From the NCBI GenBank assembly GCA_030065985.1, contig JASJCM010000006.1, positions 1 through 64,000 on the forward strand: 64,000 nt of DNA, read 5' to 3'. The notes below the pieces were generated by a model. It saw nothing but the letters and a program-made list of their open reading frames with translations, searched no databases and was not told the origin of the DNA. This DNA is from Woeseiaceae bacterium. Lineage in GTDB: Bacteria; Pseudomonadota; Gammaproteobacteria; Steroidobacterales; Woeseiaceae. Each line of letters starts with the position of its first letter. Within the stretch, counting starts at the first letter, position 1. Shown one piece after another: positions 2,506 to 53,561 of this stretch. The translations under genes were made by a program, and so were the position numbers.

Positions 2506-2997
2506 ATGAAAAACTGGACATCGATGACAAGGGTCTTCCTCTGTCTTGCGACGGTAGCTCTGATTGCCAATCCCGCCTGGGCCGAGGAGGAACGTGCATC
2601 CACAATGTCCCGAGAAGAGTGCACCATGTCCGCTCGCGACGTGGTCGATCAGTTTATCGACCTGTTGTACGTGAAGAAGCAGGTCCGACTAGCGTTCGAG
2701 ACCTGGGTGCATCCGGACTACATTCAGCACAAGCCAACACTTCCCGATGGGCGAGAGGCGGTAATTGTCTTCCTGGAGAGGCTGATCGAACGATTCCCGG
2801 AGCGGAAGTTCACCATCCACCGTGTCATCTCATCGAACGATCTGGTGGCGGTTCATTATCATAGCCAGGCCACCCCGGATGACCCGGGCTTTGCTGTAGT
2901 TGATATCTTCAGGGTCGAGAACTGTCGCATGGTAGAACACTGGGATGTCGTACAACGGGTGCCCGAGGAGTCAGCAAATGACAACACGATGTTCTAA
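2506..2997 (+). CDS. Secreted SnoaL/NTF2-like protein
   Basis: 163 aa, N-terminal signal; WVHPDYIQHKPTLPDGREAV...FTIHRVISSNDLVAVHYH...VDIFRVENCRMVEHWDVVQ is typical of SnoaL-like proteins. Confidence 0.75.
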   Translation: MKNWTSMTRVFLCLATVALIANPAWAEEERASTMSREECTMSARDVVDQFIDLLYVKKQVRLAFETWVHPDYIQHKPTLPDGREAVIVFLERLIERFPERKFTIHRVISSNDLVAVHYHSQATPDDPGFAVVDIFRVENCRMVEHWDVVQRVPEESANDNTMF

Positions 2998-3143
2998 GGC
3001 AACTACGGTCCTTTCGCTGAAGGCCTGATAGTCAGCGGAGGTCCACCTTACTCCGCCTGGCGATAGGCCGTCACACGACGGATTACTGTGATTTCCTGAT
3101 TTCGCCATCGCCTCGCGACCAGGGGCGACTACCGGCAAAAGTA

Positions 3144-46511: not shown

Positions 46512-47996
46512 ATGACTGACCTGAAATCCACACGATCCATTGGTATCAGCGGCCTCGCCGCCTACATCCCGCCATACCGCGTATGGCTGGAGGATTGGTG
46601 TGACTGGACCGACAGCCAGTGGCCCAAGATCCGCGAGGTCGTCGGCCGCAGTTTCCGCTGCCGCGGGCCCGACCACAGCGTCTACACGATGGCCGCCAAT
46701 GCCGTCATTCGGCTGATCGACCAGTACGACATCGATCCGAACCGCGTCAAATTCCTGGGTCTCGGCACCGAATCCAGCACTGACAACTCGGCTGGGGCCA
46801 TTATCGTCAAGGGCATGGTGGACGAGGCGCTTATTTCGCGTGGTTTGCCGCCCATTGCGCGCAGCTGCGAGGTTCCCGAGTTCAAACACGCGTGCCTTGG
46901 GGGCGTCTACGGCATGAAAGGCGCCATCCGCCACCTGGCGCTGGACGGCGCCGGTAGCCAGGCTATCGTGGTTTGCGCGGACATCGCCGAATACGCGCGC
47001 GGCAGCTCGGGCGAGCCGACCCAGGGCGCTGGCGCGGTCGCGATGCTGCTCGAGGAGGATCCGCAGCTTGCCGTTGTCGATCTGGTCGGTTCGGGTTCCG
47101 CGTCCGACTACCGGATCATGGACTTCCGCAAGCCGATGCTGCGCTTCTGCGGGCAGGACCGCTCCGAATCTCATCAGGTACAGGACTTCCCGGTTTTCAA
47201 CGGCAAGTACTCGACGACCTGTTACGTCGACGAGACACTGCATGCCCTGCACGACATGTACGAGAAGCGCGAGCTGGAGCCGAGCGCTTACCTGCGCTCG
47301 CTCCGCAGTGTATTTCTGCACCGTCCCTACCGGCGCATGCCTGAGACAGGCTGGGCCGTGTCGTACCTGTTCGCGTTAAGCCAGGGCAGTAACGAGGATC
47401 GCGCCGAACTCGCCTCCTATTGCTATGAAGCAGGCGTCGATGTCGACGCGATGCTGCAGGAAATGATGTCGAAACCGGCGGTCGCGGAACTGGCGACTCC
47501 GGAGCAGCTGAACTATGAGGCGTATCCGCTGACGATGGCTGCGCTACGTGCGTTCCGCGCGTCGCGCCATTATCGCCTGGAGATTCTCGACAAACTGCGG
47601 CTTGGCAGCGACACGATGCTCGATCTGGGCAACCTCTACACGGCCGCTTTACCGGCATGGATGGCCGCTGGCTTCGAACAAGCGCTCGAAGAAGACTCTT
47701 ACGAGGTCGGCGAAGAAGTCCTGACGCTGGGCTACGGTAGCGGCGACGCGGCCGAGGTAATCCCGTTCTTCGTCGCCGATGGCTGGAAGGAAGCAACGCG
47801 CAAGATCGGATTCGGGCAGGCAATGCAGTTTGCAATTGACCTGACGCAGGAACAATACATCGCGTTGCACGATGGCCGCCGCGTCACAGGACTCGACTAT
47901 GTGCCGAACAACGAGTTCGTGATCGAACGGGTCGGCGCCTCCGACGAACGCCATTTCGCCGATATCGGCATCGAGTACTACAAGTACATCGCCTGA
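46512..47996 (+). CDS. Hydroxymethylglutaryl-CoA synthase family protein
   Basis: TMAANAVIRLI, EFKHACLGGVYGM (catalytic Cys), FLHRPYRRMP (catalytic His); next to other mevalonate genes. Confidence 0.88.
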   Translation: MTDLKSTRSIGISGLAAYIPPYRVWLEDWCDWTDSQWPKIREVVGRSFRCRGPDHSVYTMAANAVIRLIDQYDIDPNRVKFLGLGTESSTDNSAGAIIVKGMVDEALISRGLPPIARSCEVPEFKHACLGGVYGMKGAIRHLALDGAGSQAIVVCADIAEYARGSSGEPTQGAGAVAMLLEEDPQLAVVDLVGSGSASDYRIMDFRKPMLRFCGQDRSESHQVQDFPVFNGKYSTTCYVDETLHALHDMYEKRELEPSAYLRSLRSVFLHRPYRRMPETGWAVSYLFALSQGSNEDRAELASYCYEAGVDVDAMLQEMMSKPAVAELATPEQLNYEAYPLTMAALRAFRASRHYRLEILDKLRLGSDTMLDLGNLYTAALPAWMAAGFEQALEEDSYEVGEEVLTLGYGSGDAAEVIPFFVADGWKEATRKIGFGQAMQFAIDLTQEQYIALHDGRRVTGLDYVPNNEFVIERVGASDERHFADIGIEYYKYIA

Positions 47997-47997
47997 G

Positions 47998-48573
47998 TCA
48001 GGCGAGATCGCAGTAGCGTTCCAGCTGCTGGCGATGAGTTTCTGTCAACTCCTGCCATTCCTGCCTGAACCAGGGTGTGAAGCGTTCAGGCTTTGCACGA
48101 AACTCAGCGTCGAGATCCGTGGCAGTTATGAACCGTATTGCCGCTATCTCGCTCTCGTTCGGCGCAATCTCCTCTGCCGCGCGACCCAGGTACACATGAC
48201 ACAGCTCGTTTTCTGAACCGGCATCGCCAAAGGACGCCTCGTAACAGAACGAATAGACATGCTCGAGTTCGGTCGCGAAATTGAGTTCGTCATCAAGACG
48301 TCGAGCCGTCGCCGTTGCGAGCGACTCGCCGCGGCGCGGATGACTACAGCAACTGTTTGACCAGTAGCCGCCCCAAAGCCGTTTGCCCGGGGCGCGCTGT
48401 TGCAGCAGAAGCTCGCCAGCGTCGTTGAACAGGAACAATGAGAAAGCACGGTGCAGTATGCCAACGCCGTCGTGAGTATCGGCCTTCGACGCGTAACCGA
48501 TTTCGTTGTCATCACGATCAACAAGGATGAGCTCTTCGCTCTCGGACGACACGATGCGGTGTGTATCAGTCAT
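47998..48573 (-). CDS. idi: Isopentenyl-diphosphate delta-isomerase, type I
   Basis: ELILVDRDDNEIGYASKADTHDGVGILHRAFSLFLFNDAGELLLQQRAPGKRLWGGYWSNSCCSHPRRGE. Confidence 0.95.
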   Translation of the reverse strand: MTDTHRIVSSESEELILVDRDDNEIGYASKADTHDGVGILHRAFSLFLFNDAGELLLQQRAPGKRLWGGYWSNSCCSHPRRGESLATATARRLDDELNFATELEHVYSFCYEASFGDAGSENELCHVYLGRAAEEIAPNESEIAAIRFITATDLDAEFRAKPERFTPWFRQEWQELTETHRQQLERYCDLA

Positions 48574-50696
48574 GACGATTCTCCGGGCACGAGCACCTGG
48601 TAACCCGCGCGCGTCAGGGCTGTCCGAACTTCAGATACCTTACCCGGGCACAGCGCGACAATCGAGCCGCCACCACCTGCACCCGTCAGTTTCGCGCCGG
48701 CAGCGCCGCTGGCACGAGCCAGGTCGATCATGCGTTCGAGCGACGGCGTCGACACACCGATTGCGTTGAGAAGCCCCTGGCAGAGATTCATGAGCAATCC
48801 GAGTTCCTCATAATGGCCGTTGCGAAGTCGTTCGGCGCCCGCGCGGGCCAGTGTGTCCATCTGGTCAAACAAGGCGCCGAACTGCTCAGGCGCCTGTTCG
48901 TAGCGCTCACGCACGCCGGCCACCTGTTCGCTCGTCTTGCCTGTCTCCTCACCCCACGCAATGACGAGCGGGGGCGTCTCGTCGGTCTCGATCATCTCGA
49001 ACCGCAGTTCTCCATCGTTACTGAACAGCATCGGCGCCGCATAGGTCGACAACGTATTGTCGACACCCGATGGCGTGCCGTGTGCCAGCTGTTCGCTCGC
49101 AAAAGCGATCGCATTGATGCGCTCATCGTCCAGCCCGAGGTTAAGCTCACTGTTGAAAGCGCGAGCCATGGCAACGGCGATCGCCGCGGACGAACCGAGA
49201 CCTTTGCCCAGAGGCAGTCTCGAGACGACGTCGATCTTCCAGCCACGCTCCTTGATACCGAGCTCATCGAGAATACGTTCGACATATTCGTCCGGCAGGT
49301 TGTGAGACAGCTCGTTAGCGGGCGCGACAGAAACGCTGACCGCATCGGGAATCGGCACGGCGAGCGCGTGCCGGCCATAGACCACGCCGTGTTCCCCAAG
49401 CAGGATAATCTTGCCCGCGGACTTCGCGCCGGCGCCCGGCTCCGAAGTCAGATCCTCGAGCAGCTCGCGCGCCTTCCAGTCCTTTATCTCACCGCTCTCA
49501 ATCAGGCGACCGACAAGCGTATCGAACAGCTCGGCCGGTGCACCTGCCGACGCGGCGACGCTGCGCGCGTGGAGATTCATATGGCCTGCCTGAATGCCGC
49601 TCGTCACGAGCGCCCGCAATGCAGCAAAATTCTGTGCCAGACCGACGGCAACCATGAGCACCGCGAGCTCATGGGCCGTTCGCGCTCCAGTCAACGCGAG
49701 GCCAAGTTCAGCCGCAATATTGTTGCTGAGCGTGCCGCCCACAGTGCCGACCTTGAGCGGCAAGGTGAGTTCGCCTGCCAACGCACCATCGTCATCCACG
49801 AACCAGCGTGTCAATGCCCGATAGCGGCCATCCGCCGCCGCATAGGCATGTGCGCCTGCTTCGATTGCGCGCCAGTCGTTGCCCGTCGCGATGGCCAACG
49901 CATCCACCCCGTTCATGATGCCCTTGTTGTGCGTCGCCGCACGGTACGGATCGACCAGCGCAATATCGTTGGCCGTAACGATCGCGTCGCGCACCTTCTC
50001 CGACACGGTGAACGCCGCACGCGCGGTGTACAAAGACCGGTCGGCGAGATTCGAGAGGATCCGCAGCGCGACCTGACCGCCACAGATTGCCTCAACCTCG
50101 GGGGCGATTGCCTCGCAGATCGAGTTGACGAGATTGGCGCCCATCGCGTCGCAGGTATCGACGAGCACGTGGACCGCGACGAGCGGCCTGCCGTCCGGCA
50201 GAGTGTGCTGATGTGTCTCGATCGCGCGCACTCCACCACCGCGACGCAACAGACGCGGATGCACGTTGTTTGCGAGTTCGAGTAATGCGTCGGTCGCCGT
50301 ACCGAGGGACTCGATCGCTCGTGCGGCATCGTCAATGTTCGTAACGTGAACCTGGCCAAGCAGCAATGACGTATCACTGCGCACCTCAAATCCGCCACGC
50401 TTGCGCACGTTCGCTGCCGCAGCCGACAAGCCGGCAACAATGGAGGGCTCCTCGACCACGAGCGGCACGATGCAGTCGCGTCCGTTGACGATGAAGTTCG
50501 GTGCTGCCGCGAATGGCAGGCCAAACACGCCGATGACGTTCTCGATCATGCGGTCCGCCGCGAGCGGACTGAGAACATGGTGACCGCCACAGAGACTGGC
50601 GGCGTCGGCTGATGATAGCCAGCCGTATTCCTCGAGCCGCTCGACGCGGGCCGCAACGGGCAGTCGGTACAGTCCGGCTATGCGTGAATCGCTCAA
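48570..50696 (-). CDS. Fused class II HMG-CoA reductase - mevalonate kinase
   Basis: N-terminal HMGR: ENVIGVFGLPFAAAPNFIVNG, VVEEPSIVAG, THNKGIMNGVDALAIATGNDWRAIEAGAHAYAA, GHMNLHARSVA; C-terminal GHMP kinase: SAGKIILLGEHGVVYGRHALAVPI, LPLGKGLGSSAAIAVAMA, KLTGAGGGGSIVAL; TTG start in TTGA overlap with the upstream stop (ORF track start is 50735). Confidence 0.93.
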   Translation of the reverse strand: MSDSRIAGLYRLPVAARVERLEEYGWLSSADAASLCGGHHVLSPLAADRMIENVIGVFGLPFAAAPNFIVNGRDCIVPLVVEEPSIVAGLSAAAANVRKRGGFEVRSDTSLLLGQVHVTNIDDAARAIESLGTATDALLELANNVHPRLLRRGGGVRAIETHQHTLPDGRPLVAVHVLVDTCDAMGANLVNSICEAIAPEVEAICGGQVALRILSNLADRSLYTARAAFTVSEKVRDAIVTANDIALVDPYRAATHNKGIMNGVDALAIATGNDWRAIEAGAHAYAAADGRYRALTRWFVDDDGALAGELTLPLKVGTVGGTLSNNIAAELGLALTGARTAHELAVLMVAVGLAQNFAALRALVTSGIQAGHMNLHARSVAASAGAPAELFDTLVGRLIESGEIKDWKARELLEDLTSEPGAGAKSAGKIILLGEHGVVYGRHALAVPIPDAVSVSVAPANELSHNLPDEYVERILDELGIKERGWKIDVVSRLPLGKGLGSSAAIAVAMARAFNSELNLGLDDERINAIAFASEQLAHGTPSGVDNTLSTYAAPMLFSNDGELRFEMIETDETPPLVIAWGEETGKTSEQVAGVRERYEQAPEQFGALFDQMDTLARAGAERLRNGHYEELGLLMNLCQGLLNAIGVSTPSLERMIDLARASGAAGAKLTGAGGGGSIVALCPGKVSEVRTALTRAGYQVLVPGESS

Positions 50697-51595
50697 GGCT
50701 GCTCCAGGATGACGCCGACGTTGTCGAGCTCGCAATCGAGCACTTTGTGGATCAGGTCCGGGTTGGCGGCGATGAATGTGTCGAGTTCACCGTCGTCAGG
50801 CCCCAGCAACGTGCCAATGTCACCGCCGCCTGCTCCCGCAGGCTTGTAGACGAGGCCCGCGCGGCTCGCGGCGTCGGTCAGTTCTTCGTGGCCAGCATCG
50901 AATATGCCGAGATCGTGGTCAACACTGAACTGGCGCAGCGCCCCGATGTACGGCACGTAAGCGGCAAGAATCCGAGCCGCGTCACCGGACTTCCATGCAT
51001 CGGCCATGTTCGCGGCTTCAGCAACGAGGGACGAGTGGGACGATCCGCCCTTACTGGTCGTCAGGTGCTTCAGTCTTGCCTTCGTGCTCGCCGACACACC
51101 GGTCCAGATGAACCGGATCGCCAGATTCTCCGGCCACTCGAGTGTCTCAACCGATGCGCCTTGCATCCGGTATTCGATCAGGCCGCCATGAACCGACGTT
51201 GCCACGTCCACACCGCTACCCGATCCATCCTGTAGCCGTCGGTGAGCAGAAAGCGCATCCGCATACACGTCACCACGTAGCGCCGCCACGAGTGCGGTAG
51301 TCAATGCCGCACTCGAACCGATGCCAAGTTTTGTGCCGTCCTCGGCAAAAGCGACCGTATCCAGTTCGATCGTCAGCTCCGGCCGGGATCCACACACGGC
51401 CTCGACGATGTGGAACTTTTCGCCGTTGTTAAACTCCCTTCCGGGCGTCGCGACGCGACATCGGCCATCGGGACTGTCGCCAACCGTTGCAATTGCGCGT
51501 CGATTGACAGCCATGCAGATCGACGGCGCGCCGTCGAGCACCGCGTACTCCCCCGACAGAACGACTTTGCCGGGCGCACTTGCCACTACGCTCAT
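50693..51595 (-). CDS. Phosphomevalonate kinase (GHMP family)
   Basis: SAPGKVVLSGEYAVLDGAPSICMAVNRRA, LGIGSSAALTTALVAAL, KPAGAGGGDIGTLL; start at MSVV (ATGA overlap). Confidence 0.85.
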   Translation of the reverse strand: MSVVASAPGKVVLSGEYAVLDGAPSICMAVNRRAIATVGDSPDGRCRVATPGREFNNGEKFHIVEAVCGSRPELTIELDTVAFAEDGTKLGIGSSAALTTALVAALRGDVYADALSAHRRLQDGSGSGVDVATSVHGGLIEYRMQGASVETLEWPENLAIRFIWTGVSASTKARLKHLTTSKGGSSHSSLVAEAANMADAWKSGDAARILAAYVPYIGALRQFSVDHDLGIFDAGHEELTDAASRAGLVYKPAGAGGGDIGTLLGPDDGELDTFIAANPDLIHKVLDCELDNVGVILEQP

Positions 51596-52554
51596 GTCGC
51601 CGCCTCCAGTCGGGCACCCTGGCCGAGACCGGATACCATGATGTCCTCGACGCCCTGTGTCTTTCGTAACGCAGCTTCGACATCGGCCGCATGCTCGGGC
51701 AGGCACACGGCCTTAACCTGTGGCCCGGCATCGATCGTGAAGAACACGCCGATATCGCGTGCCTGCAGCGAGCGCACGGTCTCGAGGCAGCGCATTGTTG
51801 CCGCATTCCAGTAGACCATTGGCGGCCGCGAAGCCCACATGATCGAGTGCATTTTGAGGCAGTTGTGTTCGGCGACCCGCGCCAGCCTGGCGAAGTCGCG
51901 ATCGTGAATCGCCGCGCGCGCTGTATCAAGATCGGCCGCCTGCTGGTCGACCCAGTTCGAATAGAACGGCGAGGTCTTGCGGCTGATCTCCATTGCTGCA
52001 GTCGAACCTACGGCCTTTGGGCCCGTTTCGGTAATTGCCACGACAACCGCAAATGGCCACTCGTCAGCCTCGCAGAGAGAGTCAACGGCGATGCCTCCAT
52101 TCGTATTCGTGAGTTCGACGAAGCCACCGAGAATCGAGCGAGCCGCAGATCCCGAGGCCTGGCCTGCAAGGCTGGCAAGCTCCGCCGTTGTCAGTGACTT
52201 GCCGGCCGCATGCGCAGCAGCAACGGTCAGTGCGGCAAACGACGACGCAGACGAAGCCAGTCCGGCAGCTATGGGGAAGTTGCACTGGCTCGCGATGCGC
52301 GCGCGCGGGCGATCCTGATCCGCTACCCTGTCGAGGCAGGCCGACAGCCGCGGCAGCATATTTTCGTCAGGCGCGTCGTTGACGGTCAGCGTATCCGCAT
52401 CGAGTCCGTCTTCGAAAATCACGTGCATGCGCGTATGGAGCTCGCGCAGCGTAATCGAAATCGATCCGACGGCCGGCAGATTCAGTGCGACGTCGCGCTT
52501 CCCCCAGTACTTGATGAGCGCGATATTCGGCTGTGCGATCGCCGTTCCCTGCAT
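51592..52554 (-). CDS. mvaD: Diphosphomevalonate decarboxylase
   Basis: AQPNIALIKYWGKRDVALNLPAVGSISITL, FPIAAGLASSASSFAALTVAA, SGSAARSILGGFVEL, FTIDAGPQVKAVCLP. Confidence 0.95.
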   Translation of the reverse strand: MQGTAIAQPNIALIKYWGKRDVALNLPAVGSISITLRELHTRMHVIFEDGLDADTLTVNDAPDENMLPRLSACLDRVADQDRPRARIASQCNFPIAAGLASSASSFAALTVAAAHAAGKSLTTAELASLAGQASGSAARSILGGFVELTNTNGGIAVDSLCEADEWPFAVVVAITETGPKAVGSTAAMEISRKTSPFYSNWVDQQAADLDTARAAIHDRDFARLARVAEHNCLKMHSIMWASRPPMVYWNAATMRCLETVRSLQARDIGVFFTIDAGPQVKAVCLPEHAADVEAALRKTQGVEDIMVSGLGQGARLEAAT

Positions 52555-52598: not shown

Positions 52599-52649
52599 GC
52601 TCAGCACAGCCCGCGCACAGCGCCCGAAATCGTGTACGCTACATGGCCC

Positions 52650-53561
52650 ATGCCTGCCAGGATCGATCATTTGTCGGCCAGTTTCGAAGACCGCATCGCT
52701 GACTATCAGCAACGCGTCGACGAGCGTCTCGGCCAGGCCTTGCCCGAAGCGGCAAAGGTTCCGGAGCGGCTCCACGACGCCATGCGCTACGCCGTTTTCA
52801 ATGGTGGCAAGCGCGTGCGCCCACTGCTCGTTTATGCAACGGGGGAGTGCCTTGGCGTCGCGCCCGGGCAACTCGACTCGCCCGCCGTTGCAATCGAACT
52901 GATTCATGCATTCTCGCTGGTGCACGACGATCTGCCGGCGATGGACGACGACGACCTGCGGCGCGGCAAACCGACGGTACATATCCAGTTCGACGAAGCC
53001 ACGGCAATCCTGGCCGCCGACGCGCTGCAGCCGCTCGCGTTCTCGGTACTCGCAGGCGTTGCCGGGGCTTCGGACAGCACCCGCACTGCACTCGTCCGGC
53101 TCGTTGCGGACGCGGCAGGGTCGGTCGGGATGACCGGCGGTCAATCTATCGATCTCGACGCTGAGGGCAAGATGCTGTCGGTCGCCGAGCTCGAACACAT
53201 GTACTCGCTCAAGACCGGCGCGCTGATTCACGCCGCCATCATGTCCGCCTGCCTCCTCTGCGACGATCTTGATCGCGAGCACATCAAGGCACTCGATGAC
53301 TTCGGCCGGCTCGTCGGCGTCGCCTTCCAGATCAAGGATGACATCCTGGACGTTGAAGGCGAGACGCACGTGATTGGCAAGCCATCCGGCTCTGACGAAA
53401 AACTCGACAAGGCGACGTACCCCTCGCTGTTCGGTTTAGATGCATCCCGTGAGCGTTGCGATGAGTTGCTCGAACAGGCACTCGCCAGACTCGACCGATT
53501 CGGCGACGCCGCCGCGTCCCTCGAGTGGCTCGCCCGCTACATCGTGGCCCGCGGCCAGTAA
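52650..53561 (+). CDS. ispA: Farnesyl diphosphate synthase (polyprenyl synthetase)
   Basis: FNGGKRVRPLLVYATGE, AFSLVHDDLPAMDDDDLRRGKPTVH, GGQSIDLDAEGK, FQIKDDILDVEG. Confidence 0.94.
   Translation: MPARIDHLSASFEDRIADYQQRVDERLGQALPEAAKVPERLHDAMRYAVFNGGKRVRPLLVYATGECLGVAPGQLDSPAVAIELIHAFSLVHDDLPAMDDDDLRRGKPTVHIQFDEATAILAADALQPLAFSVLAGVAGASDSTRTALVRLVADAAGSVGMTGGQSIDLDAEGKMLSVAELEHMYSLKTGALIHAAIMSACLLCDDLDREHIKALDDFGRLVGVAFQIKDDILDVEGETHVIGKPSGSDEKLDKATYPSLFGLDASRERCDELLEQALARLDRFGDAAASLEWLARYIVARGQ

Follow-up and report, generated by a model that had tools for sequence, protein, structure and literature searches.

The window, the whole stretch of 64,000 nucleotides analysed here, comes from a gammaproteobacterium of Woeseiaceae affinity and encodes one polypeptide in which a class II HMG-CoA reductase (HMGR) is joined to a mevalonate kinase (MK). 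The protein is a fusion of two known enzymes from a known pathway, the mevalonate pathway, of which HMGR is the committed step. Judged from its sequence, it is very probably a bifunctional enzyme of biosynthesis with flexibly tethered halves, encoded by the third gene of what is probably the sole isoprenoid operon, and fused once. Its N-terminal class II HMGR would produce mevalonate from HMG-CoA, with NADPH as the probable reductant, and its C-terminal MK would phosphorylate mevalonate to 5-phosphomevalonate.

Reading frame and active sites

The gene and its parts are arranged as follows:

48570..50696, reverse strand: HMGR-MK fusion gene, 708 aa, TTG start at 50696, TGA stop at 48570
49446..50696, reverse strand: class II HMGR part, residues 1-417, ending in a three-helix C-terminal flap domain (368-417) with the catalytic His372
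49428..49445, reverse strand: inter-domain linker, residues 418-423 in the AF2 model
48570..49427, reverse strand: GHMP mevalonate kinase part, residues 424-708 and stop

The 708 codons form a single open frame with no internal stop, which confirms the original prediction of an uninterrupted passage from HMGR into MK. Pfam matched all three anticipated domains, HMG-CoA_red at residues 15-377 (E 1e-93), GHMP_kinases_N at 470-549 and GHMP_kinases_C at 624-699. Both halves also pass NCBIfam equivalog cut-offs, the HMGR half for TIGR00532 (350.8 bits, cut-off 260) and the MK half for the mevalonate kinase model TIGR00549 (232.8 bits, cut-off 163); none of the 17 matching NCBIfam models describes the fusion. 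The HMGR profile begins at residue 2, and an N-terminal acetoacetyl-CoA thiolase domain of the MvaE type is absent by Pfam and NCBIfam. Over 100 further genomes, cultured isolates among them, carry the frame intact as a single ORF, which rules out an assembly or frameshift artefact.

As read from the alignment, HMGR residues E83, K258, D274 and H372 correspond to E83, K267, D283 and H381 of the Pseudomonas mevalonii enzyme, so that the predicted Glu, Lys, Asp and His motifs are present. All four are invariant across 61 fused proteins, as are K429, E435, S503, D546 and the glycines GGGG 674-677 of MK. Together with the equivalog matches, these residues bear out the claim of a complete class II HMGR and a complete GHMP kinase. 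The cofactor helix of the HMGR half reads HPRLLRR, with H146, P147 and R152 nearly invariant in the 61-sequence alignment. Its resemblance to (H/Y)xSxxxR, an NADPH motif given in PMC13370337, suggests that the HMGR half probably uses NADPH. Purifying selection acts on both halves, with dN/dS in close pairs of 0.06-0.14 for HMGR and 0.10-0.19 for MK, the ratios being rough for several pairs owing to high dS.

It is very unlikely that the chain gives rise to two separate enzymes by post-translational cleavage or internal initiation, the fusion being merely a genomic arrangement. Although the variable, unstructured linkers might be cleaved, that of the window protein comprises just about six residues. 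Moreover, no in-frame ATG, GTG or TTG occurs between codon 373, within the HMGR catalytic motif, and codon 430, past K429 of MK, and hence no common start codon could initiate a separate MK within the frame.

Operon context and isoprenoid supply

The fusion is the third gene of a closely packed operon of the order MDD-PMK-[HMGR-MK]-IDI, with HMG-CoA synthase and farnesyl diphosphate synthase genes on the flanks:

46512..47996, forward strand: divergent HMG-CoA synthase (HMGS), best NCBIfam match below cut-off; GTES, HAC and FLHRPYRRM recognized by eye
47998..48573, reverse strand: type I isopentenyl-diphosphate isomerase (IDI), TIGR02150; 4-nt overlap with the fusion stop
50693..51595, reverse strand: phosphomevalonate kinase-like gene (PMK), ATG start at 51595; 4-nt overlap with the fusion start
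51592..52554, reverse strand: diphosphomevalonate decarboxylase (MDD), TIGR01240, 246 bits; 4-nt overlap with PMK
52629..53561, forward strand: farnesyl diphosphate synthase-type prenyltransferase, divergent from the operon

The same order recurs in Gammaproteobacteria, Calditrichota, Acidobacteriota and Planctomycetota and partly in Cryobacterium; Bacillota instead show HMGR-MK-MDD-PMK. Two neighbours are divergent. The best NCBIfam match of HMGS scores 148.8 bits, far under the cut-off of 360, while its catalytic motifs are apparently retained. The PMK-like GHMP kinase has no Pfam match and solely sub-threshold NCBIfam matches, and represents a divergent phosphomevalonate kinase.

This setting bears on the direction of the HMGR reaction. 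The family name of TIGR00532, 'degradative', and the nearest solved structure, P. mevalonii HMGR, would both fit mevalonate catabolism. However, MK, PMK, MDD, IDI and HMGS are encoded alongside, DXR, an enzyme of the MEP pathway, is absent from the window genome, and the cofactor helix is of the NADPH type. A degradative role is thus extremely improbable, and the automatic label 'HMGR, degradative' can mask a bifunctional biosynthetic enzyme.

No further match to the HMGR-MK protein was found in the window genome (G000), where it gives the sole HMGR and MK hits. As G000 is a metagenome-assembled genome (MAG) of 84% completeness, another HMGR or MK may have escaped assembly; three near-complete, single-contig relatives (G078, G117 and G145) have one match each. 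Fusion and DXR occur together in none of the 148 order-level relatives (122 with the fusion, 23 with DXR and 4, namely G026, G073, G090 and G096, with neither), where the 122 comprise all strong fusion or HMGR matches without DXR, including a few truncated at contig ends. This distribution suggests that the operon is probably the organism's only isoprenoid route. Strict exclusivity everywhere is rejected by Calditrichota, in which 5 of 40 genomes contain a full DXR match and 4 of these 5 also carry the fusion, and the sole-route status is accordingly valid for the window's order and not everywhere. The four genomes concerned (G823, G837, G838 and G839) have either dual isoprenoid routes or mis-binned contigs.

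The completeness of both halves, purifying selection, the sole HMGR and MK hits in the genome and the lack of an internal MK start support, at the level of sequence, the predicted bifunctional enzyme with fixed 1:1 stoichiometry.

Distribution and origin

The HMGR-MK architecture exists in at least five bacterial phyla, and the survey of its spread shows that it is not a one-off. We found 114 fused ORFs in the fetched loci, a few of these loci being the same genome reached by different searches, and a fusion unique to the window genome is thereby rejected. It occurs in the window's genus and family, in most families of its order and in most Calditrichota. Elsewhere it is present in about 10 of 369 sampled Gammaproteobacteria, 3 of 199 Acidobacteriota, about 8 of 193 Myxococcota, 4 of 120 genomes of the family of Cryobacterium (Actinomycetota) and one Planctomycetota bin; of 299 sampled Pseudomonadota genomes, the window's is the only one with the fusion. 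Individual MAGs may be misassigned, for instance the Planctomycetota and Nakamurella bins. Cultured isolates, Dyella monticola and three Cryobacterium species, carry the fusion as well, and mis-binning of MAGs therefore does not explain its spread. A plasmid-borne fusion was also sought, and none of the 49 matching plasmid records reached 80% coverage.

The HMGR tree places all 71 fused representatives, together with two contig-cut rows (L071 and L073), in one clade with an SH-aLRT support of 100. Its nearest relatives are HMGRs from Myxococcales and Oceanobacillus-type Bacillota with neighbouring, unfused hmgR and mvk genes. Fused rows do not group together in the best MK tree, yet a topology with a single clade survives the AU test (p 0.296). 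One origin of the fusion, shown for HMGR and compatible with the MK data, is therefore most likely. Repeated independent fusion is rejected by the single HMGR clade, in which the two single rows, L071 and L073, are truncated at contig ends. These are also the apparent singles among the fetched loci, where no verified case of fission was found. The locus L214 of G132, also a MAG, was not counted as fission: at about 2990-3040 the first MK strand has a small deletion, MK is out of frame and the fusion is split, which reflects an assembly error or a pseudogene.

The simplest reading is one fusion event that travelled with its operon. The fusion would have formed once from adjacent hmgR and mvk genes and then have been inherited or transferred with the operon. 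There is a modest chance that the fusion brings no selective advantage and began as an accidental read-through of neighbouring, already co-translated genes, securing equal dosage only. In line with neutrality, hmgR and mvk are adjacent and often overlapping in the nearest relatives, other operon genes are already coupled by 4-nt overlaps, and the linker sequence is unconserved. The retention of the fusion in at least five phyla, without verified fission in the fetched loci, argues against it. We favour a beneficial fusion, whose advantage would lie in holding dosage at 1:1 and keeping the two enzymes close: since the reductase is reversible, a tethered kinase driven by ATP may remove mevalonate and pull the HMGR step forward.

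The tether and relation to known enzymes

The AF2 model of the window protein (mean pLDDT 88.8, pTM 0.66) shows both folds with high confidence. By Foldseek, the HMGR half resembles P. mevalonii HMGR (TM 0.89, by target) and the MK half Methanosarcina mazei MK (TM 0.85), and no chain covering both halves is among the matches listed. The flap helices span residues 368-383, 388-401 and 406-417, and the MK half opens with a strand at 424. The linker is thus short, as predicted, but shorter than stated, and while the model delineates six linker residues (418-423), it gives no confident relative placement of the domains. The tether would consist of the HMGR flap domain and this short, unconserved linker.

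Direct transfer of mevalonate from the HMGR site to the MK site through a defined interface is unlikely. Consecutive reactions on one chain and the very short linker of the window protein would suit channelling; against it, the linker in fused proteins spans about 4 to 84 aa between HMM edges (median 16) without sequence conservation, and pTM values are 0.66 for the window protein and 0.60 for a relative whose junction falls below a pLDDT of 50, although monomer models cannot show a dimer interface. The channelling suggested originally is therefore not supported. Owing to the linker variation and the low pTM, the benefit of the favoured tethered enzyme could also be weak or only regulatory.

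In Enterococcus HMGR, ligand binding closes the flap over the active site and positions the catalytic His (PMC10070635); MK would accordingly hang from a moving part. The relative mentioned above is one of six genomes, all from the window's genus, in which flap helices 2-3 are missing and the catalytic His and a full MK are retained:

Short-flap loci: L218 (G031), L219 (G049), L220 (G071), L221 (G001), L222 (G040), L223 (G032)

Short-flap pairs are under purifying selection (dN/dS). On a junction-free tree, in which the outgroup row L226 is misaligned and long, the loss of helices 2-3 takes three changes, at least two of which are required by well-supported branches. In the AF2 model of one member, helix 1 runs into the disordered junction, which gives no sign of MK packing where the helices were lost. 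An unfused lokiarchaeal HMGR (L091:5944-8109) likewise ends 10 residues past the catalytic His, without flap helices 2-3, indicating that their loss needs no fusion. An MK gene lies directly downstream of this HMGR, in the same frame. The short lokiarchaeal HMGR and the disordered junction weaken the replacement of the flap by MK as a general rule. We consider it improbable that MK is mechanically integrated, in the sense that it moves with flap closure, replaces helices 2-3 where lost and couples both catalytic cycles.

As the original prediction states, this architecture is not known to have been characterized, and this fits with our search: the open-access literature and NCBIfam yielded no description of an HMGR-MK fusion, nor did text searches of PMC13001223 and PMC13370337. 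Presumably, the architecture already sits, unremarked, in domain databases. It marks the mevalonate operon that replaces the MEP pathway in Woeseiaceae and relatives and is common to distant phyla. Natural fusions of HMGR with the next enzyme are ready-made parts for terpenoid engineering, and HMGR-MK offers a test of whether fusing consecutive steps alters flux.

With P. mevalonii HMGR (PDB 1qax/9dcp), the window protein shares full-length homology, the Glu/Lys/Asp/His set and the three-helix C-terminal flap. It lacks a 9-residue stretch near residue 230, and its cofactor helix is NADPH-like instead of Asp146-type. Whereas known class II HMGRs stop after the flap domain, MK comes directly next in the window protein. 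The MK half matches M. mazei MK (PDB 6mde) over the whole domain, including the catalytic Lys and Asp and the glycine-rich motifs; solved MKs are stand-alone, whereas in the fusion about six N-terminal MK residues are replaced by the linker. The hmgR-mvk pairs of Myxococcales and Oceanobacillus/Virgibacillus, the nearest HMGR relatives, comprise the same two genes in the same order, but in two frames. Among bifunctional enzymes of isoprenoid synthesis, IspDF of the MEP pathway, widespread in bacteria and cited in PMC13001223, joins non-consecutive steps, in contrast to HMGR-MK, which joins consecutive ones. The acetoacetyl-CoA thiolase-HMGR MvaE of Enterococcus (PMC10070635) is likewise a mevalonate-pathway fusion with a class II HMGR; its partner, however, is the upstream thiolase at the HMGR N terminus, whereas here the downstream kinase is attached to the C terminus, on the mobile flap.
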